Positions 17,387 to 44,849 of a stretch of DNA of 51,201 nucleotides are shown here, piece after piece (the first letter of the stretch is position 1; the number at the start of each line of letters is the position of its first letter). The notes under the pieces are model-generated. The model was not told the origin of the DNA, searched no databases, and saw nothing but the letters and a program-made list of their open reading frames with translations. The stretch is from contig NZ_AZRY01000139.1 of assembly GCF_000520515.1 (NCBI RefSeq), positions 1-51,201 on the forward strand, read 5' to 3'. The stretch comes from Arthrobacter sp. H20. Lineage in GTDB: Bacteria > Actinomycetota > Actinomycetes > Actinomycetales > Micrococcaceae. The position numbers were made by a program, and so were the translations under genes.

Positions 17387-19990
17387 CTAGCCCTCGGCGC
17401 GGAGGTGGTCCTCGTTAATCGATTCCCGACGACTGATGCCGAGCTTCTCGAAAATCCGATACACGTGTCCTTCGACTGTTCGCACAGAAAGCCCCAGTTC
17501 CAGCGCTACCTCAGCATTGCGTTTCCCTCTGCCCACCAGAACGGCGATATCCCGCTCTTTGCGAGTAAGCTTTGGTGAGCTCACGCCCCGGTGGAAGGAC
17601 TGGCCCTTCTGGTGCAGCTGCTCCAGCAGTTGCCTGATGTTCTGCTCCCGCAACCGGTTCTGATCGGAGCCGGCCAGGTTGAGGGCTTCCTGCAGGCAGA
17701 GCAGGGCGAGCGGAACGTAGCCGATATCCTCGGCCTGGTGCGCGATACGGACCAATTGATCGGCGTCGTGTTGATCCACAGCTCGGCAAAAGCCAGCCAC
17801 TAGCGCGGCGCCGGCGCCATCCACCAAGCTGGCAAGTTCCTTTACCCGCGCAAACCGACTGTGCTGTCCCACTCCCAGGGCGAGGACACGCAGGTCCATC
17901 TCGGCAGACACCCACCCCCTCGCCTCGGCATGGTCGGCCAAAGAGTGCAGCTGGGCCACTGCATCCGGGTCAGCTGACTGCACCACCCTGGCAGCGAGAA
18001 TGAAGCCACGGCCCATAAGTTGTGACTGTTGATTTCCCTTATCGCCGATGCTGTCGAACTCCATCGAGAATCGTTGCCAGCTAACCCGCTCGCCCACCAC
18101 TGAGGCGGTGAACGCGGCGAGTCCGAGTGCCACTGGACGCAAATTCTCCACATCGTGGATGCGAAGGCCTTCCACGGCACCACTCAAAGTTTCAGACGCC
18201 TCCCGATATTTGCCCTCACACATCTGGACGACCCCCATGGCTAGGTCAATAGCACCGCCCCAGTAGGCAAACGAGTCCGACGCCGACTCGGTATATCGAT
18301 TCAGCACCGCTGCAATCTGGCTCCACCGGCCAGCCCGAATCAGTGAGACAACGTGGCGGATAAGGACCCATTCGTGGTCGAGGATGAACCGCTGCGGATT
18401 GTCCTTCAACCTACGGAGTGCGTTACCGGTAACATCAGCTCCCCGCGCGGCCTGCCCCGTCGATGCATAGACCTCTCCCAATAGCGTGAGTGCAAGGATT
18501 GTGCTGCGTTCGTCATCGTCCGACAATGCGCCGTCAAGGTGCCTACGGAGACGTTCGGTCACGCCCGTGTACTTTCCCTCTGAAACCTCGCGATGCAGCT
18601 GCAGCAGGTCGACCTCCCGGTCGGAGGAGAACGGTCTGATCGCCTGGGCATCACCGGCACCAGGTGACTGCAGTCTGATAGCGAGGTGGGCTGCATAGTT
18701 CATTGATTCGAGGTCCAGATCGGCTGCAGACAGGTCCTTCAGACACTCCTGAGCTGATCGATACTCGCCTCGGTGGACGTATGCCCGCGCTTTTTGGACA
18801 CAAGCGGCTGAAGCCATCCTCGGTTGGTCGACCGCTGATGCTGCCCGCAAAGCGAAGGCTGAATCAGCAAGGTTATTGGCCACCGCGGCGGACTGGAGCA
18901 GCCTGTCGTTGGGGACAGACACACCACAGTCCAATAACCAGGACGTGTGCCGCACCAGGGCTTCACCGGTTAAGGAACCCGCGCTCGCACCAGCTTCCAG
19001 GAGCTGACGAAGCCGCAACTTGCGTCCCGCTGGAACGAGTCCACGAAGGATCTCGCCCAGCAACGGGTAGCTCGGGCGGACCAACGGCATCGGAGGCTCC
19101 CCGATAGCAATGAGGTGCGCCTCGTATAGCGCATCGATCGACGAGTGCCTACCCAGTTCGAACAGGGCAGAGATCATCAACGGTTCAGCCAACGCAACCA
19201 ACTCAAGAACCTCACGATCTCCCGGCGACAATCTCGACAGCTGCCTCTTCGTCAGTTCAATCGAGTGCTTGCCGGGTAACAGGCAGCCCTCCCTGAGAAT
19301 CCACACCCCATTACTGTTGACTACTGTGCCGCCTCGGCGGGCCTCCGCGATGAGAGTGAAAATGAGGAGCGGATTCCCTCCGCTCACACGTTCCACTGCG
19401 GCGCTCGTGCTCAATAGCACCCGCCCGCCGAACACCTGCTGGCATAGTTCATGGACCCCATTCTTGGTGAGAGGCCGAAGCTGGTAGCGGGCCAGAAGCC
19501 TGTCTACCGCTGGTCCGAATACTTTTGCATCCATCGCGTGACCTGGTCTACTGAGCAGGAGAACCCGGACTTCTCGTGAAGCCACCACCTGCAGGATCAA
19601 ATCCGCGCTGGCTTCGTCGAGCTCGTGCGCGTCGTCGACGATCAACAGGGCCGGCGCTGAGCTGGCCGGGTCATTGCCCGCGCGAAGGCTCCCGATCAAT
19701 GTGCGCATGAAAGCAATCGGGGAATCCGATTCGAGAGGACTGAGCTGTGTCAGCAGCGGCGCCAGCGCCCCGTAAGGGATACCTGCCAACGCCGCGCTGC
19801 CGTGCACACGGAAGGGTCTCACTTCTGCTTTGAGCTCTTTGAGCGCGGCCTCGGCGAGTGCACTTTTGCCTAAACCCGCATCACCAACAATCCACGTTCC
19901 ACTGCCGGACCTGATGTATTCCAGGATGATCTGCAGTTCATCCGCCCTGCCAACGAGGTCACAAGACCCGGGGTTAGCTATGAAGTCCAT
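17387..19990 (-). CDS. Giant LuxR/ATPase (LAL) regulator, pair 1 downstream member
   Basis: 867 residues in the plan of MalT/LAL regulators. The ATPase has Walker A GDAGLGKS (36-43) and Walker B LLIVDDAHELDEAS. The middle is a long helical repeat region, and the C-terminus is a LuxR helix-turn-helix (LTRKERDIAVLVGRGKRN, SVRTVEGHVYRIFEKLGISR). Such proteins usually bind a small signal, oligomerise with ATP and activate a few operons. It shares IPYGALAPLLTQL and SPIAFMRTL with the products of 34054-36747 and 39847-42528, marking a subfamily of downstream members. It begins 11 bases after the previous regulator. Targets unknown; the neighbouring cys and polysaccharide genes are candidates. Confidence 0.88.
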   Translation of the reverse strand: MDFIANPGSCDLVGRADELQIILEYIRSGSGTWIVGDAGLGKSALAEAALKELKAEVRPFRVHGSAALAGIPYGALAPLLTQLSPLESDSPIAFMRTLIGSLRAGNDPASSAPALLIVDDAHELDEASADLILQVVASREVRVLLLSRPGHAMDAKVFGPAVDRLLARYQLRPLTKNGVHELCQQVFGGRVLLSTSAAVERVSGGNPLLIFTLIAEARRGGTVVNSNGVWILREGCLLPGKHSIELTKRQLSRLSPGDREVLELVALAEPLMISALFELGRHSSIDALYEAHLIAIGEPPMPLVRPSYPLLGEILRGLVPAGRKLRLRQLLEAGASAGSLTGEALVRHTSWLLDCGVSVPNDRLLQSAAVANNLADSAFALRAASAVDQPRMASAACVQKARAYVHRGEYRSAQECLKDLSAADLDLESMNYAAHLAIRLQSPGAGDAQAIRPFSSDREVDLLQLHREVSEGKYTGVTERLRRHLDGALSDDDERSTILALTLLGEVYASTGQAARGADVTGNALRRLKDNPQRFILDHEWVLIRHVVSLIRAGRWSQIAAVLNRYTESASDSFAYWGGAIDLAMGVVQMCEGKYREASETLSGAVEGLRIHDVENLRPVALGLAAFTASVVGERVSWQRFSMEFDSIGDKGNQQSQLMGRGFILAARVVQSADPDAVAQLHSLADHAEARGWVSAEMDLRVLALGVGQHSRFARVKELASLVDGAGAALVAGFCRAVDQHDADQLVRIAHQAEDIGYVPLALLCLQEALNLAGSDQNRLREQNIRQLLEQLHQKGQSFHRGVSSPKLTRKERDIAVLVGRGKRNAEVALELGLSVRTVEGHVYRIFEKLGISRRESINEDHLRAEG

Positions 19991-20001
19991 TGATCACACC
20001 T

Positions 20002-22647
20002 TCAACAAAGAATTTCTCGAAGTTGTGCCCGGCCGGAGATGTGAAGCCGCTCGAAAATTTTCCCCAAATGCCAATCAATCGTGCGCGCGGACAGATTCAG
20101 ACTCCGGCCCAGAGCGGCACTGCTCTCGCCAGCCGCGGCGGCCGTTGCCAAGGCCAGTTCGAACTCGGTGAGCAGCGCCAAACGATCCTCGATCCCGTGA
20201 GAGCGCCGAAGCAGGCGGTAGCTTGTATTCTCCACCAACCGCGCGGCCCGAACCCCTGCCCGGTTCCCCGCACGGTGCGCCGCAGCGCGGGAGGCCCTAG
20301 CCGCGTCATAACTGAAAAGTGGATTGCCAATCTCCTGCGCTAGTTCGGCTGCGCGGATCAACACTGGTGCGTCGTCAAGAACCAGACCAGCCCCGAAATC
20401 CCTACACAGTGTGGCGTATGCCCCATCGTTTCTCCGGGCGGCGCTGGCGAGCATATCCCCTGAAACTGTACCCTCTAACCGAGTCGCGGCTGATAGAAAA
20501 ACCAGAGCATGGGATACGTTCCCGTTTGCCAGATCCTCACTGGCAAAAGAGGTCAGTTCATCGGCAACGTCCTCAGTTAACCCGCTGCCGGAAGAAGCTA
20601 GAAGGGTAAAGTACGTCGTTCCGCGCTGGATGCTCCATGAAGAAGGGTAGCCGTGAACCCGTACCAGACCAAGATGGTGCTTTGCGCGCTCGGTCTCGTC
20701 CTGGAGGGAATAGGCGTAGGCCGTAGCGGCCCGAGCATAAGGCGCCATCCCTTCCGGGTCCCGAAGGCTTAGCTGGCTCAGCGCTGGCACTAGGGACTCC
20801 AGGGCAAGATCAGAACATCCCGCGTACGCATAGAGTAGGCCCCGGAAAAGTTCGCTACGGGACGCCCACCGCACCCGGTTCATACCGAGTGCTTCCTCGC
20901 CGTCGAGCAGTTCAAGGCATTCGGCGTACTCCCCCGCAAACAGGAGCGCGTTGAATGCCCGAAGATACACCGCGTCTCGCGCCGCCTCCGATACGTTCGA
21001 GGTGCCGATTTCCCGCAGCAGGTCCCTAACCAACGTCACCGCTTCTTGCTGTCGCCCAGTCACCGACCACGCCTCGCAGAGCAAACTGCCGGCGTACATT
21101 CGAAGGTCGGGTAACCGGTCGCGGTCGAAGTAAAGGTCAGGCAATTCATCGGGCAGTTGCGCGTGCCTGCCGTCGAACATTGCCTGCTCAGCTTTGGCCA
21201 GGATCAGTCTGTCCACCATCATTGTGGTCTGCGGGTCCACACGATGGATGGCCCTAGCCATGCCTTCGTGCACACACTCGGTTACCGACAAAACTCCGGT
21301 TGGCTGGCCCGTTTCGTCGGGCAACGCCCGCGCTAGTTTGTGATGCTCGATTGCTAGGCTGGCCCGTAGCTCTGGATCTGGCACACCTTCGACGGACGAG
21401 ATCGTGCCCAGAACCTGGCTCGCGGTTGCTAGCTCGCCGAGTGCCACGAGCGCCCGTACCGTTTCAAGGAGTGCTGCCGGCTCGCGTGTCGCTGTGTCGA
21501 TATCGGGTAGCAGCGCCAGAGCTGAACGGGGGTCACACTGCTCGTTGGCAGCTTTGGCCGCCCGCAGCAGCAGTGATGGGTCAAGATCCACTCCGCAATC
21601 GCGGCCCCAACACGCAAAGTGGGGAAGGCTAGCCGGCGGGAGGGTGGAAGGATCCAGGACCGCATTGAGGCGTTCCCAGAGCTCACGACTCCTTCCTGAT
21701 GGCATTCCAAATCTTAGGGCTTCAGCGGTGAGCCGGTCGCTGATTCGTGCGGTGAGCTCCGGGCCTGGTGAGACCTCCACCATCTCTTGTTCCTGGAGAT
21801 AATCAGTATCCTCGGGGTCAACGATCTGGTTCAGGACTTTCACGGGCAACGCGCCGGCAAGGGCAAGAACCTCCAGCACGCGACACTGCGCAGGCGTCAG
21901 GGCGTCAAGTCCTAGCCTGACGATTTCCGCGATGTCCTCTGAGAAGAGGACATCTCCGGCCAGGACCCACACACCGTCGAGTTCAAACAATCGTCCGCTA
22001 CTTATCTGCTTTTGGGCCAACACCTGCAGGAATAGGGGATTGCCTCCCGTGACCGACCACAACGTCCGAATAGCGATAGCGGAGAGACGCTTTTCTAACG
22101 TCTGTTGCAGCAGATCTCCGGCTTCAACGAGGCTGAGGGGTTCCACGTCTATACGCCGTAAGTGGCCCGTAGTCCACAATTTGAGGAACTCCCCGCTCCC
22201 AGCGGCAATGTCTTGGCTTGTGATGAGCAGAGTGACCGAACCGCTGGAGGCCAACTGAGTGATCACTGTCGCGGTGAGTGGATCAAGGCTCTCAGCGTTC
22301 TCCAGAAAGATCAGCAATGGTTTCCCCTTGGCATGCTCGATGAGCACGCTCGCAAGTCCCTCAAGGAGGAGTGCAGGATGGCCGAGCGAACGGGCGTCCA
22401 GGGCGCTCAATAACAGGCTCAGGGCGCCATACGGCGTCCGGGAAGCCACCGGGCTGCACCGGATGTGTTCTACGTGGAAGTTTGAACCGGTTCGCGAGAG
22501 CATAGCGCTGGCAATTGTGGATTTGCCGACTCCTGCGCCACCCACGAGAATGACGCCGCCTCTCCCCGGCTCAAGCGAATGTAGCGCCGCCGAAACCATC
22601 TCTTCCCGGCTCCGGATCGTTGCAGTGGGCGTCTGACGGGTTGTCAT
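20002..22647 (-). CDS. Giant LuxR/ATPase (LAL) regulator, pair 1 upstream member
   Basis: 881 residues from ATG 22647. Walker A is GGAGVGKS (36-43). The Walker B position reads LLIFLENAESLD, lacking the usual paired Asp. The C-terminal LuxR domain is weaker than in its five paralogues (LTEFELALATAAAAGESSA, ARTIDWHLGKIFERLHISGR), although the TxxxHLxxIxxxL core remains. RTPYGALSLLLSALD followed by GHPALLLEGL groups it with the upstream members 36740-39391 and 42525-44849. Transcription runs away from the pssD/pssE genes across a 474-base spacer rich in dyads. Confidence 0.87.
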   Translation of the reverse strand: MTTRQTPTATIRSREEMVSAALHSLEPGRGGVILVGGAGVGKSTIASAMLSRTGSNFHVEHIRCSPVASRTPYGALSLLLSALDARSLGHPALLLEGLASVLIEHAKGKPLLIFLENAESLDPLTATVITQLASSGSVTLLITSQDIAAGSGEFLKLWTTGHLRRIDVEPLSLVEAGDLLQQTLEKRLSAIAIRTLWSVTGGNPLFLQVLAQKQISSGRLFELDGVWVLAGDVLFSEDIAEIVRLGLDALTPAQCRVLEVLALAGALPVKVLNQIVDPEDTDYLQEQEMVEVSPGPELTARISDRLTAEALRFGMPSGRSRELWERLNAVLDPSTLPPASLPHFACWGRDCGVDLDPSLLLRAAKAANEQCDPRSALALLPDIDTATREPAALLETVRALVALGELATASQVLGTISSVEGVPDPELRASLAIEHHKLARALPDETGQPTGVLSVTECVHEGMARAIHRVDPQTTMMVDRLILAKAEQAMFDGRHAQLPDELPDLYFDRDRLPDLRMYAGSLLCEAWSVTGRQQEAVTLVRDLLREIGTSNVSEAARDAVYLRAFNALLFAGEYAECLELLDGEEALGMNRVRWASRSELFRGLLYAYAGCSDLALESLVPALSQLSLRDPEGMAPYARAATAYAYSLQDETERAKHHLGLVRVHGYPSSWSIQRGTTYFTLLASSGSGLTEDVADELTSFASEDLANGNVSHALVFLSAATRLEGTVSGDMLASAARRNDGAYATLCRDFGAGLVLDDAPVLIRAAELAQEIGNPLFSYDAARASRAAAHRAGNRAGVRAARLVENTSYRLLRRSHGIEDRLALLTEFELALATAAAAGESSAALGRSLNLSARTIDWHLGKIFERLHISGRAQLREILC

Positions 22648-22869
22648 GAGCCTGAGCCGATACTCGTCGTAAATCGGCTCCAGGTAGAGCTGAAGACGAC
22701 CATGCGGGCTTCCTCTAGGGAGCGGATAGTGCGATGTCGGGCTGGTGAGCCCATCCTAGGTCCGATTCGAGAATGCGTCCATGGCAACTCGCGATCGGAG
22801 CTTTCGATACGGCCCTGAACTGGTGGAGGTGTAAACATGCCCTGCGCCCAACCCCCAACCCGGGAGAAC

Positions 22870-22882
22870 CGAGTACTACCCG
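22870..22882 (+). promoter_or_regulatory. Shared 13-nt motif CGAGTACTACCCG, copy 1
   Basis: A near-dyad (CGAGTA-C-TACCCG, one mismatch). The identical 13-mer occurs on the opposite strand at 33985-33997, upstream of wcaJ, and its GTACTACC core recurs at 46554-46561 upstream of ugd. Proposed regulator binding site. Confidence 0.5.
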
Positions 22883-22976: not shown

Positions 22977-22993
22977 CGAGTAGCGAGTACTCG
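22977..22993. promoter_or_regulatory. Perfect dyad CGAGTA-GCGAG-TACTCG
   Basis: Six-base arms with a five-base centre lie 129 bases before the pssD ATG and 330 bases before the pair 1 regulator start. It shares GAGTAGCGA with the dyad at 44924-44938. Confidence 0.5.
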
Positions 22994-33556: not shown

Positions 33557-33606
33557 GTCAGGCCGCCGGGCGGCAGCACGCGCCCACGTAGATGGCGCTC
33601 GTGGAA

Positions 33607-33666
33607 GGAGCCGACGACGGCTGGGGACGAGCCTTGGTCTCAGAAGGCTCCGACGTCGCCGGCTCC
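33607..33666. repeat. GTCTCAGA hairpin element, copy A
   Basis: Outer arms 33607-33619 and 33654-33666 pair over 12 of 13 positions. An inner stem, GAGCCTT at 33629-33635 with AAGGCTC at 33644-33650, closes the loop GGTCTCAG. It lies about 50 bases before the wcaJ-like start. Two related copies are at 39622-39696 and 45055-45111. Function unknown. Confidence 0.6.
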
Positions 33667-33931
33667 GAATAGGGAGGACGTAGTTCAGAGCGATGGCCCA
33701 GTGCCGATACAGAAAACTTTCGGCGGGGTCGCAGCTGCGTCCAGGACAGAATTGGGTGGTCTAACTCGGCCACTATTCCGCCACCTGAGGGGAGATGGGA
33801 ATTTGTAACTCCAGATGACCAGCGGTTTGCACCGCTGGTTGAATCGATTGACATGGCGAGACCCGCTTCATAAACGCCCTGGAACTGCTTTCGGGGCAAG
33901 CCTATGAATCAGCTGAATGCCGGACACGAGT

Positions 33932-33941
33932 GGTAGCTACC
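33932..33941. promoter_or_regulatory. GGTAGCTACC palindrome upstream of the wcaJ-like gene
   Basis: A perfect 10-base palindrome about 375 bases before the wcaJ start. It shares the TAG/CTA half-sites of the other dyads. Confidence 0.35.
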
Positions 33942-33956
33942 TGAATCGACAGAGCT

Positions 33957-33997
33957 GGTACTACTCGGATAGGCACTGCGAACTCGGGTAGTACTCG
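33957..33997. promoter_or_regulatory. Two shared motifs, GGTACTACTCGG and CGGGTAGTACTCG
   Basis: The second site, 33985-33997, is the exact reverse complement of 22870-22882. The first, 33957-33968, is a close variant. Their starts are 28 bases apart. Proposed binding sites for one of the LuxR-type regulators. Confidence 0.5.
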
Positions 33998-34053: not shown

Positions 34054-36747
34054 TTAGGTCTGGTTCAGGTCCTGTAAATCTTCCCGGCGGCTGATGCCGA
34101 GTTTGGCGAAGATTCGGTACAAGTGCCCTTCCACTGTCCGGACCGATACCCCGTGCAGCTCAGCGATGTCGCGGTTCGAATGGCCCTGTGACGCAAGGCT
34201 AACAATGTCTTGTTCACGCTGGGTCAGCTTGGTGACCGACTGTGACTCTGAGAACTGTTGACCGTGCAGACCCTCAAGCTTCTCAACCACTGTGTTCAGG
34301 ATGGGCTGCAATGCCCGTGAACGCTGGGTCTGCCCGTGCTGGGAAAGCAGGTTGATCGCCATACCCAAGCACTCAGCCGCAATCAGGAAGTAGTCGCCGT
34401 TCTGGGCCTGTTGGGCAGCTGCTTCCAAGGCCGTGGCGTCCTTGGCGAGCATGGCTGCGGCCATCGCGCTCACAATGGCGCCGTCGTTTCCGTCGAATTC
34501 GCTGGTAATTCGGGAGAGCGGTGCCAGGGAACTTGAGTCCCCCAGCCGGACCGCCAATTCATACGCTGTTGCGGAAAGGGTTGACATACCCGCCGAATCG
34601 GCGTGTTCGGCGATCCGGCGGAGCTCAGAAATGCTCGCGGTCGAACCTCTTAACTTCGCGTCGGCGCTAACCACGTGGATGCGTCCCTGGAGCCGAGCCT
34701 GCAGAGAACCGTGCGGTGGCAGTGCGGCAAACTCGGTTGAATACTGTTGCGCCCCAGCGTTATCTCCTGCCATGGAACAGGCATAGGCTGCCATCCCAGT
34801 GGCCATCGTCAGGAGCTGCGCAACGTCTGACTCCCGAAAGCCTTCGACGGCGAGCATGAGCCGTTTTCGAGCGGTCCGCATCCTTCCCTGCCGAAGGGCA
34901 ACAATGCCCTCAAAATACTCAAGGATCCCGCCGAAGAACGCCATCCCACCGCTGGCCGCCTGCGAGTAGGCGACCAGCAGATTGCTGATCTCTTTCCACC
35001 GGCCCGCACGAATCAAACACATGCCATGCCGGGTGATCACGAATCCCTGATGGCGCAAGAATCTGTGCCCATTCTCAGCGATGATTGTCAGGGCTTCTTT
35101 AGTTACCGCTGCACCTTCCAGCGGCCGCCCAGTGGATCCAAGTGCTTCGCCAAGAAGTGCCAGCGCCGCCAATCGGGTTTCATCGGTACCGTCCGACTCA
35201 TCGTTGATCTCACGGAGTAGCTTCTCGGACTCAGAAAATCGGCCATCCAGATTGAGCACAAAACAGGAGAGAAGTCGACATCCCATTCGGGATAGTCGAA
35301 CGGAGCTGCTGGAGGCACCGTCCCGTTGCTGCTCAATCCGGTTGATGGTCTTGGTCCATCTGTTCACATCGTTCTGGATTTCACCAGAGTTGGCTCCTGC
35401 TATCATCCGGAGGTCGATGGACAGGAGTGTCGCTTCCTTGGCGATCCGAAGGCTGTCACAGTTCAGGAACGCCTCGTCCACCAGCTCCCGGGCGTAGGCG
35501 AAGTCGCCGCGTGTCACGCGTGCGTGAGCTATTTCCACGAGCGCCCGCGATTTTAACACCGGCGTCTGAACAACCCTCGCGGCACGAAGCGCGAACGCGG
35601 GATCATATAATCGGTTCGCAACAATCGCAGCTTTGAGGAGGGTGGCGTCGTCGAGCACTGCGCCACAGTCCAGGCCCCAGGAAACCCAGCGGAGGAAACC
35701 CTCGATAGACTCTGTCTGCTCCTCCGAGAGCTTCAGCAGACGTCGCCGGATCGTTAGGCTTCTCCCGACCGGAACCTGTGCACGGATGACTTCCCCGTAC
35801 AACGGGTGAGCTAGAGCTACCCGGCGATCAGGACCGATGGTGAGGGCCAGGAGTTGGTCAGCCACGAGAGTGTCGACCGCATGGGAGTCGCAGTTTTCGC
35901 GCAGAACGTTCATGGCCACGGGTTCAGCGAGGGCGACAGTTTCGAGAGCGTCCAGCTCTGCGGGCGAACGCCCCCGTAGTTGGCCTTTGATGAGGTCGGT
36001 GAGACGAAGGTCTATCTCCGGCCGCTCGCCCGACAGGCACCACACACCATTGCGTTGAACCAGGTATTTTGATCGGGCGTCCGGGTGAAGCAGCGCAAGG
36101 AGGAACATGGGGTTGCCCCTGGACGTTTTGCTGAGGAGCGCGCTGACGTTGGAGAGGACCTCGCTTCCGAGTTCCCGGACGCATAACTCGTGAATCTCTT
36201 CCCGATTCAGAGGCCCGAGATCGTACCTGAGTAGCATTCCGTCGTGCCAAAGCGAGAGGAACTCAGAGGGTGGCCCGGGTGTTGATCTGGCCAGCACCAA
36301 GACCTGGGCGCGGCGGGTAGCAATAAGCTGCGCCAGCAGGATACTCGTACTGTCATCAAGATCGTGCGCGTCATCGACGATAAATAGGGGAGCCGGGGCG
36401 CCGGCCTTCGGCTCCCCGAGATGCTTTGTCAATCCACGATAAATGGCGATCGGCGATCCTGCATCAGCTACCGTCAGCTCGGTCAGGTATGGGGCGAGCG
36501 CACCAAAAGGGACCTTGCGCAGGGAGCGTTGTGCACTTATCTGCACCACCGTGACGTCCTCTGCCAGCGCATCGGCGATGGCGCGGGATAACGCAGTCTT
36601 TCCGAGCCCGGGATCGCCCACAACTAATACACCGAGAGCGGGTGTGGCGGTCAGTGTTCCGACGATGTCGCTGACCAGTGATTGCCTGCCGACCAATCCG
36701 ACAGTGGCTGTGGGTACGACTCCCCCTGCAGCCATGGAACTATTCAA
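34054..36747 (-). CDS. Giant LuxR/ATPase (LAL) regulator, pair 2 downstream member
   Basis: 897 residues from ATG 36747, or 893 from the in-frame ATG at 36735; the longer form overlaps the upstream regulator by 8 bases. Walker A is GDPGLGKT (44-51) and Walker B LFIVDDAHDLDDST. The C-terminal LuxR domain is intact (LTQREQDIVSLASQGHSNRD, SVRTVEGHLYRIFAKLGISR). VPFGALAPYLTEL with SPIAIYRGL places it with the downstream members. Its closest relative by eye is the product of 17387-19990. Any ligand and targets are unknown; wcaJ immediately downstream is a candidate. Confidence 0.88.
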   Translation of the reverse strand: MNSSMAAGGVVPTATVGLVGRQSLVSDIVGTLTATPALGVLVVGDPGLGKTALSRAIADALAEDVTVVQISAQRSLRKVPFGALAPYLTELTVADAGSPIAIYRGLTKHLGEPKAGAPAPLFIVDDAHDLDDSTSILLAQLIATRRAQVLVLARSTPGPPSEFLSLWHDGMLLRYDLGPLNREEIHELCVRELGSEVLSNVSALLSKTSRGNPMFLLALLHPDARSKYLVQRNGVWCLSGERPEIDLRLTDLIKGQLRGRSPAELDALETVALAEPVAMNVLRENCDSHAVDTLVADQLLALTIGPDRRVALAHPLYGEVIRAQVPVGRSLTIRRRLLKLSEEQTESIEGFLRWVSWGLDCGAVLDDATLLKAAIVANRLYDPAFALRAARVVQTPVLKSRALVEIAHARVTRGDFAYARELVDEAFLNCDSLRIAKEATLLSIDLRMIAGANSGEIQNDVNRWTKTINRIEQQRDGASSSSVRLSRMGCRLLSCFVLNLDGRFSESEKLLREINDESDGTDETRLAALALLGEALGSTGRPLEGAAVTKEALTIIAENGHRFLRHQGFVITRHGMCLIRAGRWKEISNLLVAYSQAASGGMAFFGGILEYFEGIVALRQGRMRTARKRLMLAVEGFRESDVAQLLTMATGMAAYACSMAGDNAGAQQYSTEFAALPPHGSLQARLQGRIHVVSADAKLRGSTASISELRRIAEHADSAGMSTLSATAYELAVRLGDSSSLAPLSRITSEFDGNDGAIVSAMAAAMLAKDATALEAAAQQAQNGDYFLIAAECLGMAINLLSQHGQTQRSRALQPILNTVVEKLEGLHGQQFSESQSVTKLTQREQDIVSLASQGHSNRDIAELHGVSVRTVEGHLYRIFAKLGISRREDLQDLNQT

Positions 36748-39391
36748 GGATCAGCTTTAATTGGCTGCGGTTGGAGACCCCCAACTTGGCGTACACCTGA
36801 TACATATGGCCTTCGACGGTTCGGATGGACAGGGTCAGCAGCGTAGCAATGTCCCGATTGCTGGATCCTTGGACAACTAGGCGTGCAATGCTGCGTTCTC
36901 TTTCGGTCAGCTTGTCCAGCACGCGCTCTCGCAGCTCCCCTCCGCCGCGTCCTACAGAGCGCAGGACAGTGTCGGCCGCGATAGCGGCTCTCCGTTCCCC
37001 CTCCCCAGGCCCATTATTGGCTAACCGCTGAACCAGACTGGCCGCGTCGGCTGCCAGTCGGCGGTTACCGACGCTGGCCGCCAGCGTCGCCGCCTGAAGG
37101 ATCTGAGCCGTGTCACCCGATGCGACGCCTTTGCCGTACAGCGCACAAATCTCAGCGAAAACCCCCTGCCCATCCATACCGCTGGTCGCAAGTCGCTCTG
37201 CCTCGTCAACGAGTCCAAGTTGGACTGCCTGGCACAGAAAAAACAGTTCATGGCCGAGGTTGCCTTCTGCTCGATCCTCGTTCGCGAGGTCAAGCATCTC
37301 TTGCGCTGCCAGGAGTGGATCCTGTGTCGCGGTGGATGCCAGTACTGCGAAATACTTGGTTGCCCGGCTGGTGTGCCAGTCATACCGACGGGATTCGAGG
37401 TCCACCTGCGCGAGGTGAGACATCGACAGTTGAACGTCTCCGGTGAGTGCGTATGCATAGGCGGTCGCGGCCTCCGCCAACGAAAGGAACTCCTGCCTGT
37501 CACGGATCCGTAGCTGACTCAGTGCCGGAAGCAACTTCCCGAGCGCTTCCGCTCCTCGACCCGCGTAAGCGTAAAGGCAGCCCTCAGCCAATTCGAACGA
37601 GGACCCATCGAAGATGCCTGCCAGCGCACTCTCTGCATGATCGGTCAGCATCGAAAGGCACCGCTCCCACTCGCCCGAGATCAACATCACCGCGAATAGC
37701 CGAACCTGGGCAGCTTCTGCGATGAGTGGGTCATCGCTGGAGTCGGCGAGTCGCGACACCACGAGGCGGCTGAGCCGTAGCGCGTCTTCCTGCCTTCCAG
37801 TCATGCACAATGCTTCAGCCATCCAGCCACACAGCTGGTGACTGATGGACGTGTCCATGGTGCCGCTCCGGTTCAGCAGCCCCCCGAGGGCTTCAACCAT
37901 CGTGGGATATTTGCCGTTATAGGCGTTCAGCTCGGCCTCAAGGACAACAGTCTCCGCAAGGAAACCGGCAAGGTCTGCGCGGTCGACCTGACCTTCCAGC
38001 GTCAGCCGCTTGCGAATTTCGTCAAGAAGACCATCCACATCGACGAAGCGATCGTGATCACGGGTAAGGAGACGGCACCTGAGCGCCTGCATCCCAATCC
38101 ATTCACCCAGCCCAGCGGGGTCCAGCACCGATTCGTTGAAACTTTCGAGGACTGCAAGCGCACGGTTTGTGTCGCCCAGGTTGCCGTAGGCTCGTGCCTC
38201 CTCGGTAACCTCCGCGGCGCCTACCTGTGCGGGTGGAATAGCCTCGAGAAACCGCAATGCACCTTCAGTATTAAAGTAGCGGTTCGCGAGCTGCGCAGAT
38301 TCGATGGCCAGCTCGGGTTCAATATCCATCGAGCAGTCCAGGCACCAGGCGGCGTAGTTCATCCGGCTCAGCGCCGGCATAGGAACTTTAAGCGACGCGG
38401 CAGCCAGTTGGTAGAGAAGTTCACGACTCCTGCCGATTGGAACCTGGGCCCTTATCACGTCGCCTACAAGCCCATTAGCCATGCGTACGGTCGGCCGCTG
38501 AGATAGCCCGATTTGGAGGGTCCCTGATTCCATCAACGCGTCTATCTCGTCCCCCCCAGCGAACTCTGTGAGCAGCTCAAGAGGGATGACGCCGACAATC
38601 GAGACAATTTCTGCAGTTCTCAGCTGATCAATCGTCAGCCGGGTAAGGCGTGCAGTAATTCGCTCAGTGATCGTCCGGCTTGGATCCGGGGCCTTCCGGC
38701 CACTTGCCACCCAGATACCATCCTGAACGGTGATGTATCCGGAATCCACCTGCTCCCGGCAGATCGCTTGCAGGAAGAGCGGACTACCTCCGCTAACGTG
38801 CCACGCGTCCAGCACAACGGACCGGGATACCGGGCCCTCAAGGGCTGCGGCAAGCAGCTGTGTTGTGTCAGCCAACGAAAGAGGGCCAACATCAACCCGT
38901 CGGATGAGTTCGTCTTTCCATAGGTCGCTAAACTCTTCGGGTGCCGCCTGAAGGACCTGGCAGATTAGCAGGACTTTGACTGAGCCACTTCTGACGAGGT
39001 GTGCAATGGCCATTGCCGATGCGCTATCCAGATCTTCGATGTTGTCGACGAGGATCAGGGTGCGCTTGCCATCTATCCGTGAAGCGAAGAGGTGCCGGAG
39101 GCTTTTCAGGAGGACCAGTGGATTGTCGACTGCATCGTCATCGAGTTCGCTGAGGACGAAGTTGAGGGCCCCGTAGGGCGTATCGGCTGTGATGACGCTG
39201 CCGCGCAGATAAAGCAGCTCGTACTCTGCTCCAAGGTCCCGGGCGGCGCTCTGGGCTAGAGCAGTCTTTCCGATGCCCGCAGGTCCGATCAGAACGGCAC
39301 CATTCCACGCCGGATTAGCCACGGCCTCCCGCAGCGTATTCAGCTCGTTCCCCCGGCCAACAAGTGGCCACACTCCTTGCACCCAAAACAT
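36740..39391 (-). CDS. Giant LuxR/ATPase (LAL) regulator, pair 2 upstream member
   Basis: 883 residues. Walker A GPAGIGKT (36-43), Walker B TLILVDNIEDLD, long helical middle, and a well-conserved LuxR domain (LTERERSIARLVVQGSSNRD, SIRTVEGHMYQVYAKLGVSNR). DTPYGALNFVLSELD and DNPLVLLKSL mark it as an upstream-type member. Its stop overlaps the start of the downstream partner, so the two proteins are probably made in similar amounts. Confidence 0.88.
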   Translation of the reverse strand: MFWVQGVWPLVGRGNELNTLREAVANPAWNGAVLIGPAGIGKTALAQSAARDLGAEYELLYLRGSVITADTPYGALNFVLSELDDDAVDNPLVLLKSLRHLFASRIDGKRTLILVDNIEDLDSASAMAIAHLVRSGSVKVLLICQVLQAAPEEFSDLWKDELIRRVDVGPLSLADTTQLLAAALEGPVSRSVVLDAWHVSGGSPLFLQAICREQVDSGYITVQDGIWVASGRKAPDPSRTITERITARLTRLTIDQLRTAEIVSIVGVIPLELLTEFAGGDEIDALMESGTLQIGLSQRPTVRMANGLVGDVIRAQVPIGRSRELLYQLAAASLKVPMPALSRMNYAAWCLDCSMDIEPELAIESAQLANRYFNTEGALRFLEAIPPAQVGAAEVTEEARAYGNLGDTNRALAVLESFNESVLDPAGLGEWIGMQALRCRLLTRDHDRFVDVDGLLDEIRKRLTLEGQVDRADLAGFLAETVVLEAELNAYNGKYPTMVEALGGLLNRSGTMDTSISHQLCGWMAEALCMTGRQEDALRLSRLVVSRLADSSDDPLIAEAAQVRLFAVMLISGEWERCLSMLTDHAESALAGIFDGSSFELAEGCLYAYAGRGAEALGKLLPALSQLRIRDRQEFLSLAEAATAYAYALTGDVQLSMSHLAQVDLESRRYDWHTSRATKYFAVLASTATQDPLLAAQEMLDLANEDRAEGNLGHELFFLCQAVQLGLVDEAERLATSGMDGQGVFAEICALYGKGVASGDTAQILQAATLAASVGNRRLAADAASLVQRLANNGPGEGERRAAIAADTVLRSVGRGGGELRERVLDKLTERERSIARLVVQGSSNRDIATLLTLSIRTVEGHMYQVYAKLGVSNRSQLKLILE

Positions 39392-39621
39392 AGCGCCCCA
39401 CTACACGGTGCAGGTCGGCACGGCGAGTCGTCCCAGCCCGACAGTTACGAAGAAAGCGGTGTGTCGTCCCGCTTCCGGTCCTACGTCGGGTGCAGACTCC
39501 GCCTCGGCATCCGACATACTAGGACACCACCATACGCCGGTTAGCGTAATAAGGCACGGAGGATTAGGAGAAACCTGTGATCAGCGCAATCGAATTGCCT
39601 TGAACAACGCGGTCGAATCTT

Positions 39622-39696
39622 CCCATGGTGGGGCCGGCGACGGGCTGGGGATCAGCCCGGTCTCAGAAGGCTGGCCGCCGCCGGCCCGACCGTGGG
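39622..39696. repeat. GTCTCAGA hairpin element, copy B
   Basis: Arms 39622-39639 and 39679-39696 pair over 17 of 18 positions (one G-G mismatch, one G-U pair). Inside, either GGGCTG/CAGCCC (39642-39658) or CAGCC/GGCTG around CGGTCTCAGAA can form, so two inner folds compete. It lies about 230 bases before the pair 2 regulator start on the minus strand. Confidence 0.6.
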
Positions 39697-39738
39697 TCCG
39701 CCGTTGCAGCGGATGCGTCTCGCCAGCGCGCCCGGCCT

Positions 39739-39772
39739 GGGTGACTCAACCAGTCTAGAAAATCAGTCACCC
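39739..39772 (-). terminator. Stem-loop downstream of regulator pair 3
   Basis: GGGTGACT at 39739-39746 pairs with AGTCACCC at 39765-39772 around an 18-base loop, about 75 bases past the stop of the pair 3 operon. A terminator role is possible but no T-run follows. Confidence 0.35.
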
Positions 39773-39782
39773 GTTTACATAG

Positions 39783-39793
39783 GTAGTCGCTAC
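39783..39793. promoter_or_regulatory. GTAG-TCG-CTAC dyad
   Basis: Perfect four-base arms. The 13-mer GTAGTCGCTACTC at 39783-39795 is also present, on the minus strand, within the dyad at 44924-44938. Proposed regulator site. Confidence 0.5.
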
Positions 39794-39846
39794 TCGTCTT
39801 ATTGTGGACGCCTACCTCCACCTCCGACGAGCCCTACGCAACACCA

Positions 39847-42528
39847 TCAGGGGGCGAACCCCGCCGCTGCAAGGCCTCTACTCAGTTCGTCCCGACCACA
39901 GATTCCGAGTTTGAGATAGATCCGGTACAGATGGCCTTCAACTGTTCGACGGGAGACGGTGAGCCCTCTGGCAATCTCGCTGGATGCTGCGCCGTCTGCG
40001 GCAAGCCACGCAATCTCCTGTTCGCGCTGGGTCAGCCCTACCTGGTCCATCACCTCATCGCTCATGGCACTGGTGCGGACCCGCCCCAGCGAAGTGCCCA
40101 ACTCCCGCAGTTGCTGCAGGACCCCCCGCTGGGCTCGCCCGTTTCCTACTGAGGCAAAGCCGATAGCAGCGCGGGCCAGACATTCAGCCGCTAGCAGGCG
40201 CCTTCCTCGCTGCAAAGCCCTGGCGCCTGCCGCTGCCAGCACCCCGGGATCGAGTGAGTCGGTGACCTCCATCATGATCTGGACAGCCTCTGAGTCAGCG
40301 GCGCCCATCCGCTCCGTCAGGTCCTGCATTCGTTCCTGCTGCACGGGACACTTCAATAGAAAGAGAACCTCCACTATTTCTGCCTCCGCGTGAACAAGAC
40401 CGGCTGCGCGGGCTTCGTCGGCCCGCTCCAGCACAACCAACAGGTCCTCCGGGCTTACCGCTGGCCATGACTGCGCAGCGGAGACATAGGCATCAGCGAC
40501 CAGCCGCTGGGGCAAGGAACCACTATATGCAAGCGTCCTATAGTCCTGCGTATAGGTGCGGGACTTCCCCAGTTCTCCAACCAGTCTGTTGGCGAAGGCG
40601 GCTGTTCCCAAGGCTAGGGGTAGCAGCAACTCTGGGTCGCAGCGCCGCAGTTCTTCTATCCCAGCGGCCAGCAGCTCGCAACCATTCGTTATTCTTCCGC
40701 TTCTGAATTCCATGAGTCCCTGCAGCGTGATCATGTCGCCGCCAAAGTATCGAAGTTCTGGCGGTGCGTGTTCTTCGTGCCACTGCAAGAGCTCGGTGAG
40801 CCCTGCTTCGTCTCCGGTCTGCACCAGCAGAGATCCGTGACGGGCGGTGATTGAACGGTAGTGGTTGACAAGGGTCCCGCCGGAGGAGGTTTCAGCCACG
40901 GCTCGCAGGGTGAGATTCCTCGCCTCGGTGGTGTCCCCTGTTGCGCCCAGCATTTCCCCGAGAAGCACTTGGGCAACCATGCCAGTAGCGGATTTCGGGG
41001 GGGCGTCATCTGTGATCTGCTTGAGCCACTCAGTAGCGGCGCCGTAGTCACCCCCGAGGCTGAGAGCTATACACTTCAGGATCGCCGCGCCCTGCTCTGG
41101 TTGATGTGTGAGGTCAATTGGCAAGGTACGCCCGATGATCACCCAGCGGTCGGCCACCTCATTAAGACCGTGAGGCCCGCCGCCACGCTGCAGCGATATT
41201 CTAGCCTCGGTAACAGCTGCGGTCGAAAGGGTCAGCTGGTCCGCAGCGTCCTCCATCAGGCCACGAATTTGAGCTGCAGCAGCCTCGGTGTCACCCAGGC
41301 TAAAAATGCTTCGCACTATTTCAATCCGCGCCGCGGTGGCGAACTCTGGCGAGGTGATTGCGGCACAGAACCGCTGTGCCAGGCGGGGCGCATACCCGTT
41401 GTTGGCCAGATGTGCTGCTTCCAGCAATAGGGGGTCCTCGATCGGGTAACCCAGGTCCATTTCCCAGGTGAGGCTGCCGCTGACTCCGCCACCTTTCAGC
41501 AGTCCGCGTCCAAGCGCTGAATCCTGAAGCCAATGCAGGATTTCGGCGCGTCTCCCGGGCGGAACCAGGTCTCTCACCACTTTTCCGTAAACCTTCGGGT
41601 CAATCGTAACTAGGCTCCTGTCGCTGCCTTGTGGTCCGGAATATGACAGGATACCGATTGTCAATGCCTCTTCCACAGCGCTGGCATCCAACAGGTGTCG
41701 GGCAGCCGCGATAGGGATAGAACCCAGCAGAGCAACAACCTCAACTACCCGGCGTTGGGCCCGAGTACAGCCGTGGAGAATGGTCTGTACTTGATCAATA
41801 AGCACCTTTCCTGGCGATTCGGGGGCACGGGCCATCAGCCACACTCCGTCTCGTTTAACCATTGCCCCTGAACGAACAAGGTGAGCAAGCAGCTCTTTCG
41901 CAAGGTGAGGGTTGCCCTGAGACCAGTCCGAGATGAAGGCTGCGGAGCCGGAGCTGACGATGTCGCCCAGCTCCTGCCGGCACAGCTGAGTGGTTTGGTC
42001 AGGGCTTAGCGCCTCAAGCTCAAACAGTGCAAGTAGCCCATCTCGGCGCAGCGCGTCCAGTTCTTCGGGCCTGTTCCCTGACCCACGGGACAGGATCAGT
42101 AACCGGACTTCGCCAGCAAGCGCGAGTTGACCGAGCAAGTGGCTGCTATCTTCGTCGAGATGATGGGCGTTCCTCAAAACAACCAGCACCGGCAACGCCG
42201 CATCGTTTGAGGTCAACCGCAGGGATGACCGAATGCTGCGCAGGACCGATAGCGGCGAGCTGAGATCGTTAGGGAAACGTCCGTTGAATACTGGAGCAAG
42301 TGCGCCGTAGGGAACGTCCTCCAGTGAGGCATCAGCGAAGACCGTGACCGGATCTACCGTGCCGTCCAACTGATCGAGGACAGCGTCGACCACCGCCGTT
42401 TTACCGATGCCCGGTGCCCCGCACACCAGAACGCCGCCGATCATCGGATCCAGGATGCTCACCGCAATTGCCCGAATCTCGGCGGAGCGTCCCACGAGAC
42501 TTCCAAACCCTCGTTGGGGGCCCATCAC
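39847..42528 (-). CDS. Giant LuxR/ATPase (LAL) regulator, pair 3 downstream member
   Basis: 893 residues; the ATG overlaps the upstream regulator's stop by four bases. Walker A is GAPGIGKT (37-44), but the Walker B position reads VLVVLRNAHHLDEDS, with no Asp pair before the His-containing segment. ATP hydrolysis may be altered. DVPYGALAPVFNG and SPLSVLRSIR align with the downstream members. The LuxR domain is intact (LTQREQEIAWLAADG, SRRTVEGHLYRIYLKLGICGR). Confidence 0.87.
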   Translation of the reverse strand: MMGPQRGFGSLVGRSAEIRAIAVSILDPMIGGVLVCGAPGIGKTAVVDAVLDQLDGTVDPVTVFADASLEDVPYGALAPVFNGRFPNDLSSPLSVLRSIRSSLRLTSNDAALPVLVVLRNAHHLDEDSSHLLGQLALAGEVRLLILSRGSGNRPEELDALRRDGLLALFELEALSPDQTTQLCRQELGDIVSSGSAAFISDWSQGNPHLAKELLAHLVRSGAMVKRDGVWLMARAPESPGKVLIDQVQTILHGCTRAQRRVVEVVALLGSIPIAAARHLLDASAVEEALTIGILSYSGPQGSDRSLVTIDPKVYGKVVRDLVPPGRRAEILHWLQDSALGRGLLKGGGVSGSLTWEMDLGYPIEDPLLLEAAHLANNGYAPRLAQRFCAAITSPEFATAARIEIVRSIFSLGDTEAAAAQIRGLMEDAADQLTLSTAAVTEARISLQRGGGPHGLNEVADRWVIIGRTLPIDLTHQPEQGAAILKCIALSLGGDYGAATEWLKQITDDAPPKSATGMVAQVLLGEMLGATGDTTEARNLTLRAVAETSSGGTLVNHYRSITARHGSLLVQTGDEAGLTELLQWHEEHAPPELRYFGGDMITLQGLMEFRSGRITNGCELLAAGIEELRRCDPELLLPLALGTAAFANRLVGELGKSRTYTQDYRTLAYSGSLPQRLVADAYVSAAQSWPAVSPEDLLVVLERADEARAAGLVHAEAEIVEVLFLLKCPVQQERMQDLTERMGAADSEAVQIMMEVTDSLDPGVLAAAGARALQRGRRLLAAECLARAAIGFASVGNGRAQRGVLQQLRELGTSLGRVRTSAMSDEVMDQVGLTQREQEIAWLAADGAASSEIARGLTVSRRTVEGHLYRIYLKLGICGRDELSRGLAAAGFAP

Positions 42529-44849
42529 GTGGCTCCTGCGCTGAGGGCAACCTTGGCCAGCAATTCCGCTTTCGTCCTGACATGCAGCTTCGTATAGACC
42601 CGATGCAGGTGCCCCTCGACCGTGCGAACGCTCAACCCCAGTGCCAGCGCAACATCTCGGTTGGACCTGCCGTCAACCACAGCACTAACAACTTCCGCCT
42701 CCCTGCCTGTCAGAGAAGCGAGCTGGCGACGTGCGCCGAGCACGGTGCCGGTTAGCACAACGACCCCGCGGACGCGTTCAGCGACATAACCCCTGGTGAC
42801 CTGATCCCCCGACTGGGTTGCAAGTTGAACTGCCGAAACAGCCATGTCACGGGCAAGGAAGCGGTCGTCGAGGGCCTGCGCGGTATCCATCGCATGTAAC
42901 AGCAGCTCGGCGTCTTCGGCATCGACACCTTTGGCATACAGCTGGCACAGCGACGCATACTGACCTTGGCAGGTGGGACTGAGCTTAAGGATCAACTGCG
43001 CGACACCATGATCACCTTGTCTCATCGCATTGCATAGGCTGACCAGTTGCCACGAGCTGTTGCCTAATTCTTCGTCCTGGCTACTGAGTGCCCGGAGCTC
43101 GAATGCCGCGCGGTCAGCCGAAGCTGTGCCCTGTAACGCGAGGGCAGCAAAGTGTTTGGTCAACCTCCGAACAATCCACGGAGACGCAATGGACTCCGCC
43201 ATGGACATCGATAAATATTGTTCTGCCCGCTCGGGCGCATCCGCAGTGCTGATCCATGCCAGTACCGCAGCGGCGAGCGGCGCGACGCCCGCGGGATCGT
43301 GTATCTGAAGCTGGCGAAGTGCGGGGAGCAGCAGACTCTCAGCCTCGACCAGCCGCCCGCCTGCCGCTAGGATTATGCCTTCGGCGAGTTCCTCGTACGT
43401 CCCAGTGCCGCAGCTGCGGTTACGTAAGTGGGCTGACACTTCCAGCATGGCGGCCACGTTCCCTACCGATGCTTCAAGTACTGCCAGCGTAATGGCAATG
43501 CGCGTCGGTAGTTCCTTCCCCTCGAAGCGGGAGAGTTGCAGCGAGTTTGCCGCCTCCTTTGCGTCATCCGCCTGGCCGGTGAACGCCAACGCCTCGCACA
43601 ACAGAACAGTTGCACGCTGACGAGCTTCTGGTTCCAACGCCCCAAGTTCAAACTCCGGGGACTTCAATTCGTGGATAGCCCGCCGATATTCGCCTTTGAA
43701 AGCTGCCTCACGCGCGCGCTCAAGCGACCTTTCTGCGTTAAATTTCCCCCCACTTGTGCCGGAGGAGGCGGAACTGTCGACAGCTATCCTCTGACCCGGC
43801 TGACCCGGCTCCCAAAGATCGACCCGACTGGCTCGACCGAGAATCACGTCGCTGAGTAGGGGGCCGATCACCGAGACGCTCGCCCACCGATCACTATCGA
43901 TCGATAGCACCCCCAGTTCCTGAAGGTCATCCAGATCGCCCAGGTTATCGGCGGGGACTACGGCCAGCGGGGTTTCGCCCGCTACTGCGAGGGTGCCGAG
44001 CAATTGGCGCTGCGATGGCAGTAGAGTTCTGATGCGGTCGGTCACGAGGTGTGTTGCGTTTGCGCCGAGATTCACCTCATCGGCAGCCAAAACCCAAACG
44101 CCGCCGACGCAGCGCAGGGCACCTGTTGCCAGATAGTCGTCGAGGAGCGCGCTGAGCAGCCTGGCGTTTCCTGCACTTTGGCGGTGTAGTGCGAGCGATG
44201 ATGCGCGGGAGACAGGAAGTCCGAGCGCAGCGAGGAGGTAGTCAGCGACGTGCTGTTGGGTGAGATCAGGCATATCTACCCGGACCAGAATCCCCTTGCG
44301 GCAAAGGGTCTGAAAGTACTGTGGCGCTCCCGGAAGGTCAGTGCACGCAGCGACCAGCCGCACCGTCCCCGCCTGCACTAGCTGACCCAGTGCTGTGATG
44401 GAGCTTCCATCTAGGTGATTAGCATCATCGACGGTCACGATCACCGGCAGATCGTGCGCCCGATCTTTCAGTGCCCGTGTCAAGCCATTGATCACCTTGG
44501 CCGGATGATCTAGCAGGTCTTCGGGCAGATCAGCCAACAGAACACGCAGGGCACCATAGGGCTGTTGCTCGGCATGAGTCGAGCCACGCAGGTGGATCAG
44601 GCAGGTAGTTGCCCGTAGGCGGTCTACCAGTGCCCGCATCATCGATGTTTTACCAGTTCCAGTGCCACCGAGGAGGATCATCCCAGATGGGACGGACTGG
44701 CTGATCAACTGATCTCTCAGCGAGTCCGCCAACTGCTCGCGGACCTTGAGTACCCGGGACGCCAAAAGCTGGGGGCTCCCTCCGGCAGGCCCTCCGCCAA
44801 GACGTGTGGGGGCAGGATTGCAGGAGTAGTTACTGGCATCGAAACTCAT
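42525..44849 (-). CDS. Giant LuxR/ATPase (LAL) regulator, pair 3 upstream member (short form)
   Basis: 774 residues, about 100 fewer than its five paralogues, mainly in the middle region after WEPGQPGQRIAVDS. Walker A GGTGTGKT (61-68) and Walker B LPVIVTVDDANHLDGSS look functional. QQPYGALRVLLADLPEDLLD groups it with the upstream members. The LuxR domain is good (LTGREAEVVSAVVDGRSNRD, SVRTVEGHLHRVYTKLHVRTK). A strong dyad lies 75 bases upstream of the start, which suggests control of this pair by one of the regulators. Confidence 0.87.
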   Translation of the reverse strand: MSFDASNYSCNPAPTRLGGGPAGGSPQLLASRVLKVREQLADSLRDQLISQSVPSGMILLGGTGTGKTSMMRALVDRLRATTCLIHLRGSTHAEQQPYGALRVLLADLPEDLLDHPAKVINGLTRALKDRAHDLPVIVTVDDANHLDGSSITALGQLVQAGTVRLVAACTDLPGAPQYFQTLCRKGILVRVDMPDLTQQHVADYLLAALGLPVSRASSLALHRQSAGNARLLSALLDDYLATGALRCVGGVWVLAADEVNLGANATHLVTDRIRTLLPSQRQLLGTLAVAGETPLAVVPADNLGDLDDLQELGVLSIDSDRWASVSVIGPLLSDVILGRASRVDLWEPGQPGQRIAVDSSASSGTSGGKFNAERSLERAREAAFKGEYRRAIHELKSPEFELGALEPEARQRATVLLCEALAFTGQADDAKEAANSLQLSRFEGKELPTRIAITLAVLEASVGNVAAMLEVSAHLRNRSCGTGTYEELAEGIILAAGGRLVEAESLLLPALRQLQIHDPAGVAPLAAAVLAWISTADAPERAEQYLSMSMAESIASPWIVRRLTKHFAALALQGTASADRAAFELRALSSQDEELGNSSWQLVSLCNAMRQGDHGVAQLILKLSPTCQGQYASLCQLYAKGVDAEDAELLLHAMDTAQALDDRFLARDMAVSAVQLATQSGDQVTRGYVAERVRGVVVLTGTVLGARRQLASLTGREAEVVSAVVDGRSNRDVALALGLSVRTVEGHLHRVYTKLHVRTKAELLAKVALSAGAT

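Follow-up and report, generated by a model that had tools for sequence, protein, structure and literature searches.

The window analyzed here, a 51,201-nucleotide stretch of the Arthrobacter sp. H20 genome (contig NZ_AZRY01000139.1), carries six genes for very large ATPase-LuxR regulators arranged as three tandem pairs, each with an upstream member (U) and a downstream member (D). U and D are two distinct classes that stand in a fixed order, have diverged together and have decayed in opposite ways; the pairs are linked to a gene for a bacterial sugar transferase, and an operator-like palindrome and a leader hairpin are conserved at these genes. We lean toward the view that each U-D pair is a two-subunit, ATP-dependent switch of the MalT/LAL (STAND) kind, a heteromer with divided labor that would control the priming of exopolysaccharide synthesis. 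Throughout, the label "Micrococcaceae" rests on family code f1 and on one named relative, Arthrobacter sp. 260, the sole relative returned by a named-genome scan that used one protein.

Two classes of regulator in a fixed order

The initial annotation had described six giant ATPase-LuxR open reading frames (ORFs) of 774 to 897 amino acids (aa) on the minus strand, forming three two-gene units with an 11-base gap, an 8-base overlap and a 4-base overlap (pairs 1, 2 and 3, respectively), and both the positions and the distances were reproduced:

42525..44849, minus strand: pair 3 U, 774-aa LAL-type regulator (ORF with GerE and AAA_22; U clade)
39847..42528, minus strand: pair 3 D, 893 aa (ORF, domains and D clade; R replaces the Walker B aspartate)
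36740..39391, minus strand: pair 2 U, 883 aa (ORF; 75% identical stretch in Arthrobacter sp. 260)
34054..36747, minus strand: pair 2 D, 897 aa (ORF, domains and D clade)
20002..22647, minus strand: pair 1 U, 881 aa (ORF; diverged recognition helix RTIDWH)
17387..19990, minus strand: pair 1 D, 867 aa (ORF, domains and D clade)

The 8-base overlap of pair 2 depends on the TTG start of 34054-36747, the next ATG giving a gap of 4. All six proteins are LAL-type regulators (LAL, or MalT-like LuxR): each exceeds the Pfam cutoff for GerE (28.8 to 54.4 bits; cutoff, 23.5) and has the Walker A motif GxxxxGK[ST], and five exceed the cutoff for AAA_16, the sixth (42525-44849) passing that for AAA_22 instead. 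Elsewhere in the same genome there is a fourth pair (contig C33, P0007/P0008) and an orphan D-type gene (contig C48, P0009) that adjoins two glycosyltransferase-like genes, and giant proteins account for 9 of the genome's 20 GerE matches. P0009 (L002:5423-8383) has a near-exact internal repeat of ~70 residues just N-terminal of its helix-turn-helix (HTH), which could be real or an assembly artifact.

A nine-row profile, A2, matched all 38 genomes of the genus (in G016 at no better than 7e-14, the level expected of an HTH-only match), 86 of 149 genomes of the family and 26 of 149 genomes of the order, 8 of these 26 belonging to the same family. Profiles of U and D each matched 71 of 296 genomes of the class. 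The family search scored six candidates per genome and the class searches three, which makes absences in both soft. From 63 loci (64 minus one duplicate) we assembled 168 family proteins, among which a tandem-pair rule (same strand, with at most 130 nt between profile edges) recognized 69 pairs. The order was U and then D in 68 of the 69 and in all 23 pairs of a held-out set (20 regions from 19 genomes, fetched afterwards; the genomes were new, most of them from genera of the first set), or 91 of 92 overall. One branch of a FastTree phylogeny parted U from D for 137 of 138 paired proteins, and the single exception was a tandem of two outgroup-like genes. In a rooted IQ-TREE phylogeny of 73 rows, including 25 outgroup LALs, the SH-aLRT support was 100 for the U clade, 98 for the D clade and 98 for U plus D against the outgroup; for the 25 outgroup proteins, taken from class loci, the scores on the U and D profiles differ by no more than ~70 bits. 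The U/D distinction was seen in the Micrococcaceae and in family f6, plus one U in f11.

It had been proposed from the window alone that a two-gene unit was repeatedly duplicated, with the remark that a tree joining pair partners as closest relatives would argue otherwise. By approximately unbiased (AU) tests, such sisterhood was rejected for each of the window's three pairs (p = 2e-4, 3e-4 and 2e-5) and not rejected for the C33 pair (p = 0.053). Because there is a single U clade and a single D clade, sister to each other in the rooted tree, the sequences strongly support one ancient duplication that created the U-D unit, later copied as a unit. FastTree phylogenies of separate domains sorted 126 (ATPase), 131 (middle domain) and 117 (HTH) of 132 proteins by class, the support for the U/D split in the ATPase tree being only 8. 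Window pair 1 joins pairs of other genera before it joins pairs 2 and 3, which makes the duplications ancient, and the window pairs belong to separate lineages shared with other genomes; recent local duplication was therefore rejected. The density of paralogues, which had looked unusual, proved not to be so within the family, with two or three pairs per locus in several relatives. The sequence patterns picked out by eye (PYGAL with HP or NP in U; PYGALAP with SP in D) are genuine class marks with many exceptions: by alignment column among the Micrococcaceae, PYGAL continues with "AP" in 33 of 63 D proteins and in 1 of 62 U proteins, and the downstream position is HP or NP in 44 of 62 U (SP in 10) and SP in 35 of 63 D. 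As plain text, YGALAP occurs in 20 of the 63 D proteins and in one U protein of 63; in the held-out pairs it occurs in 9 of the 23 D proteins and in none of the 23 U proteins.

The two members have also diverged together. Distances among U and among D proteins were correlated with a Mantel r of 0.92 (68 pairs), whereas shuffling partners within the 20 multipair genomes gave a mean r of 0.50 and reached 0.92 in 0 of 5,000 trials. The nearest neighbors of U and D agreed in 50 of 68 pairs, compared with 25 expected. Family f6 is discordant, its U nesting near the lineage of pair 1 and its D branching deep. Outside the Micrococcaceae, G362 (L187:4241-9505) has a tandem LAL pair made of two sister proteins; unlike the U-D pairs, it arose by a duplication of its own.

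Opposite losses in U and D

The strict Walker A motif was intact in U only in 16 and in D only in 1 of 61 Micrococcaceae pairs (p = 0.0003), and the recognition helix RT[VI]EGH was intact in D only in 10 and in U only in 0 of 62 pairs (p = 0.002). Related genomes enter both these statistics and the operator statistics given below; the asymmetry test alone was redone on pairs collapsed at 50% identity, which left ratios of 11:1 for Walker A and 8:0 for the helix. Among 22 held-out pairs, the ratios were 13:1 for Walker A (U only to D only; p = 0.002) and 8:1 for the helix (D only to U only; p = 0.04). Five f6 pairs match the helix pattern, with EW in U and EGH in D, and the D protein of the C33 lineage has lost Walker A altogether. 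The Walker B motif is mostly DN in U and DD in D. Both members are intact in most pairs, as regards the P-loop in 44 of 61 and the helix in 48 of 62.

A sugar transferase gene, an operator-like palindrome and a leader RNA element

The likely target of the window pairs lies between pairs 1 and 2:

32060..33556, minus strand: bacterial sugar transferase (PF02397; full-length protein, Pfam E = 1.6e-67)

When all PF02397 (Bac_transf) matches were compared with the pair loci in 20 chosen genomes of one to three contigs, 14 of 26 such genes lay less than 5 kb from a pair, compared with 0.17 expected, and chance adjacency was rejected. Fifteen of the 18 enzyme-bearing genomes have a sugar transferase within 10 kb of a pair. 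In seven genomes whose neighborhoods had not previously been viewed, five had the gene within 2.1 kb, one had it far away and one lacked the enzyme. To judge from this conserved neighborhood, the pairs probably control the gene that primes exopolysaccharide synthesis.

Alignment of orthologous leaders revealed a shared inverted repeat, GAGTAG-N3-CTACTC, which occurs in the window as follows (no strand assigned):

44924..44938: operator-like site GAGTAGCGACTACTC, exact, upstream of pair 3
39781..39795: operator-like site with two mismatches, upstream of pair 2
22978..22992: operator-like site with one mismatch, upstream of pair 1
33952..33966: operator-like site with two mismatches, upstream of the sugar transferase gene
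33928-33942: second, weaker operator-like site before the sugar transferase gene
17224..17238: weak operator-like site (score, 11.1) ~100 bp before a hexapeptide-repeat gene (16297-17124)

We scored promoters with a symmetric matrix built from 16 training sites that precede U genes, whether paired or solo, and p values in this paragraph refer to each promoter's own dinucleotide shuffles unless random windows are stated. The window's own sugar transferase site was marginal (p = 0.06). Across the Micrococcaceae, 12 of 18 sugar transferase promoters passed at p ≤ 0.05 and 7 at p ≤ 0.01 (two more loci were too short upstream). Of 13 held-out sugar transferase loci, 9 and 8 passed at these thresholds against their own shuffles and 13 and 8 against random windows; 374 control tiles of the held-out loci passed at rates of 7.2% and 1.3%. 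Control promoters at p = 0.05 gave 0 of 29 for rplY, 0 of 20 for prs, 2 of 18 for glmU, 1 of 11 for UGDH, 1 of 5 for nhaA and 0 of 4 for mfd. At the same threshold the operator was found upstream of U at 25 of 62 genes (training loci included) and upstream of D at 2 of 63. The core GTAG-N3-CTAC with one mismatch occurred 17 times in the window, compared with 7.6 expected (0 of 100 shuffles as high). A shorter operator pattern, with one mismatch, precedes the orphan D gene, and elsewhere in the genome (C88 and others) ten regions hold one exact and nine near matches, many of them inside ORFs. Those lineage-A pairs whose U helices have drifted showed no clear conserved palindrome that might serve as a second operator in one alignment of four.

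Aligned orthologous leaders also yielded a hairpin with the loop CTGAGAC and a 3' bulge near CCCCAG, present in the window at three places:

33598..33669, minus strand: structured RNA element, 42 nt before the sugar transferase start
39621..39691, minus strand: copy of the element, 230 nt before pair 2
45046..45114, minus strand: copy of the element with a T run, between pth and pair 3

The 19 rows of the RNA model were selected on the loop, on CCCC after it and on a threshold of folding energy, the pair 2 copy being added by hand. In these sequences 14 of 17 base pairs had two-sided changes and 99.1% of cells paired; 0 of 500 shuffles showed covariation as high, and slides did not come close either. 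No Rfam match at E ≤ 1 was found at the element in window positions 15000-51201 (where the only match was a tRNA), L095, L223 or L002. A covariance model returned 97 matches from 76 sources at E ≤ 0.1; 79 exceeded 40 bits, and the remaining 18 were weak, 16 of them lying on the opposite strand of a strong match. The family search with this model scored 62 candidates per genome, so absences are soft. In the window's own genome (62 of 4,155 first-look candidates scored) it found at least four copies, preceding the sugar transferase gene, pair 2, pair 3 and a glycosyltransferase gene beside the orphan D gene. Among 80 genomes of the family, the element was present in 39 of 46 with LAL matches and 1 of 34 without (uncorrected for kinship); among genomes of the order it was present in 7 of 119, all seven from f1.

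The next labeled same-strand gene within 700 nt of the 79 strong copies was a sugar transferase gene in 25 cases (mostly within 120 nt), a U gene in 25, and another gene or none in 29. At 31 Micrococcaceae sugar transferase loci (37 minus 4 of f6 and 2 too short), the operator (p = 0.05) and the element occurred together in 23, the element alone in 2, the operator alone in 4 and neither in 2, and in 22 of the 23 loci with both the operator lay upstream of the element. In G055 (L237, L238 and L239) the element stands just before three genes that, by eye from translation, encode SARP-like regulators, so that its regulon may be wider than the LAL and sugar transferase genes. In G097 a copy follows pth in a stretch with no pair.

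A heteromeric switch, its alternatives and known relatives

In the mechanism that we favor, U and D would be made together from their closely coupled genes and assemble as a hetero-oligomer in which U, tending to retain the complete P-loop, would supply the nucleotide switch and D, tending to retain the canonical LuxR helix for recognition, would hold the complex at GAGTAG-N3-CTACTC. The helical-repeat middle domains may sense a saccharide or envelope precursor, as MalT and IniR suggest by analogy (PMC5760070, as far as the available part of that paper goes). Binding of such a ligand would drive assembly and alter transcription of the sugar transferase gene for exopolysaccharide priming and, in certain lineages, that of the pair as well; the conserved leader hairpin would add a second layer of control, perhaps as an attenuator, a terminator or a leader that binds protein or ligand. 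A hetero-oligomeric function had already been suggested in the initial annotation; fixed order, codivergence and opposite decay all point that way indirectly. We infer the oligomer itself, its ligand, the direction of regulation, its binding to DNA and the working of the RNA.

The two members might instead be separate LALs that share an operon, both needed for one pathway and each responding as a homo-oligomer to a signal of its own. GdmRI and GdmRII, two nonredundant LALs of one cluster that are both required for geldanamycin synthesis according to the accessible portion of PMC6784220, offer a precedent, and the existence of solo U and D genes and the majority of pairs in which both P-loops or both helices are intact fit this explanation. 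The order fixed in 91 of 92 pairs, the within-genome codivergence and the opposite decay would be unexpected of independent proteins, and we rate separate LALs as the less likely reading, though one with an appreciable chance. That one of the two is a paralogue in decay or a decoy, with D (or U) an inhibitor titrating its partner rather than a coactivator, is improbable: the loss of Walker A from the C33-lineage D and the drift of some U helices to EWH or DWH would suit a decoy, whereas paired U and D codiverge over many genera and each class tends to retain the part lost by the other. We give very little credence to the proposal that the pairs regulate the housekeeping neighbors pth, rplY, sufSU and mfd and lie next to the sugar transferase only through sharing an insertion site with it. 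Pairs do adjoin pth or sufSU in many drawn loci; against this stand the enrichment of the operator at the sugar transferase, compared with the counts at rplY, prs and glmU, and family f6, in which the sugar transferase follows the pair in four of five loci without labeled pth, rplY, sufSU or mfd. As for the RNA element, a role as nothing other than a transcription terminator has a considerable chance, short of even, of being correct. Some copies end in T runs and follow pth, or follow D with a convergent or no labeled gene next, and that in L242 lies between pth and a SufS-like gene with no pair in the stretch; on the other side, the GAGAC loop (a selection rule for the 19 rows) and the C-rich bulge recur in model-found copies while the stems vary, and the sugar transferase is the next labeled gene, at short range, for the 25 copies noted above.

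Several observations weigh against the heteromeric switch that we prefer. Pairing is not strictly obligate, since solo genes occur; of the 168 proteins, the tandem rule left 30 without a partner, among them some that are cut, outgroup or more widely spaced. A Bac_transf gene lies within 10 kb at only 18 of 31 pair loci. The two asymmetry tests were devised post hoc, on data already seen, and with GK alone as the requirement the Walker A contrast is 6:1 and not significant (p = 0.13); replacement of the first G of Walker A by A may be tolerated. The presence of the operator at U promoters tracks the U recognition helix (Fisher's test, 1e-5, uncorrected for kinship) and the D helix hardly varies, so that U probably also contacts DNA, contrary to a model in which reading is left purely to D. 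The long operator pattern with at most three mismatches occurs 19 times in the window, barely above the 12.6 expected (3 of 100 shuffles as high), and in the matrix scan a few control promoters, those of pth (4 of 29) and SufS/U (3 of 21), pass at p = 0.05. Only 4 of 23 held-out U promoters have the operator at p ≤ 0.05, and autoregulation thus seems limited to some lineages. In f6, the operator was found at 0 of 4 sugar transferase promoters, and the pairs beside the sugar transferase showed no RNA element. Finally, because its rows were chosen by loop and folding, the loop of the RNA model is invariant by choice and its pairing was favored.

Comparison with characterized regulators gave no equivalent of the six proteins. 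Their best NCBIfam match was in every case AbsR2 (NF050132), on the ATPase half, and the AbsR2 equivalog was rejected at 65 to 130 bits against a cutoff of 850; we take this AbsR2 to be the SCO6993 of PMC9628970. Orthology to E. coli MalT was likewise rejected, the NCBIfam MalT model scoring 17.4 to 27.3 bits in five proteins against a cutoff of 537, mainly on the HTH, with no match listed for P0002. The IniR equivalog was rejected as well: among the matches listed, NF038181 hit only P0004, on the HTH only, with 37.7 bits against 750. The D profile matched MalT domain III (1hz4; E = 5e-8), and the U profile matched designed repeat proteins in its middle region, 1hz4 not being among the 60 matches listed. 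E. coli MalT has the same overall plan, with a domain III that the middle domain of D resembles, but it is one protein rather than a pair; its MalT box is given as GGA[TG]GA in the part of PMC9628970 at hand. In the accessible sections of PMC5760070, mycobacterial IniR likewise has an ATPase, a MalT-like middle and a LuxR domain and ties trehalose to envelope genes, and it differs from the U-D pairs in being a single gene. The LAL family (De Schrijver and De Mot 1999, cited in PMC9659744) is alike in size, N-terminal P-loop ATPase and C-terminal GerE, and the named members in the available part of PMC9659744 are single genes or scattered sets, with no fixed U-D pair described there. GdmRI/GdmRII and NysRI/NysRIII resemble the pairs in that two LALs are needed for, or present in, one biosynthetic cluster (available parts of PMC6784220 and PMC3282765); gdmRII and gdmRI differ in not being adjacent in the gene table and in having polyketide targets. 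LoaP and RfaH leaders are similar in that leader signals govern long antibiotic or polysaccharide operons (PMC7819879, in excerpt); in this comparison, the RNA element had no Rfam match where searched. The LuxR-type genes of Arthrobacter sp. UMCV2 have been surveyed, and that survey catalogues long LuxR-related and ATPase-bearing proteins and, in the part available, mentions no pairs. Titles and abstract openings, with subscription papers mostly outside, yielded no paper on paired LAL regulators of exopolysaccharide, and no such exopolysaccharide regulator, in these bacteria.

A two-gene switch of two very large related regulators is apparently of an undescribed kind; to our knowledge, LAL and STAND regulators have so far been treated as single self-assembling proteins. 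We suggest, tentatively and at a little under even confidence, that the pairs represent an undescribed heteromeric STAND class with an ATP-switch subunit and a DNA-reading subunit, encoded by a cassette of the Micrococcaceae and one further family and, in the Micrococcaceae, coupled to a new leader RNA that would give two-layer control of exopolysaccharide. If so, the opposite decay of ATPase and HTH in a pair present across the family would offer a natural experiment on the splitting of sensing, energy use and DNA reading, and a candidate operator and leader RNA would be named for exopolysaccharide control in common soil actinobacteria.

Other parts of the window hold further features. Positions 11971-16300 contain sulfate-activation-like genes (by eye, APS kinase, CysN and CysD) and an inositol-phosphatase-family gene; as these lie beside exopolysaccharide-like genes, a sulfated polysaccharide would fit. 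At 7180-9980 there are two adjacent, similar secreted proteins, by eye seemingly a duplicated glycoside hydrolase, one of which has a carbohydrate-binding module, CBM96. ORFs at 1-3281 that by eye are transposase- and integrase-like flank the locus on one side.

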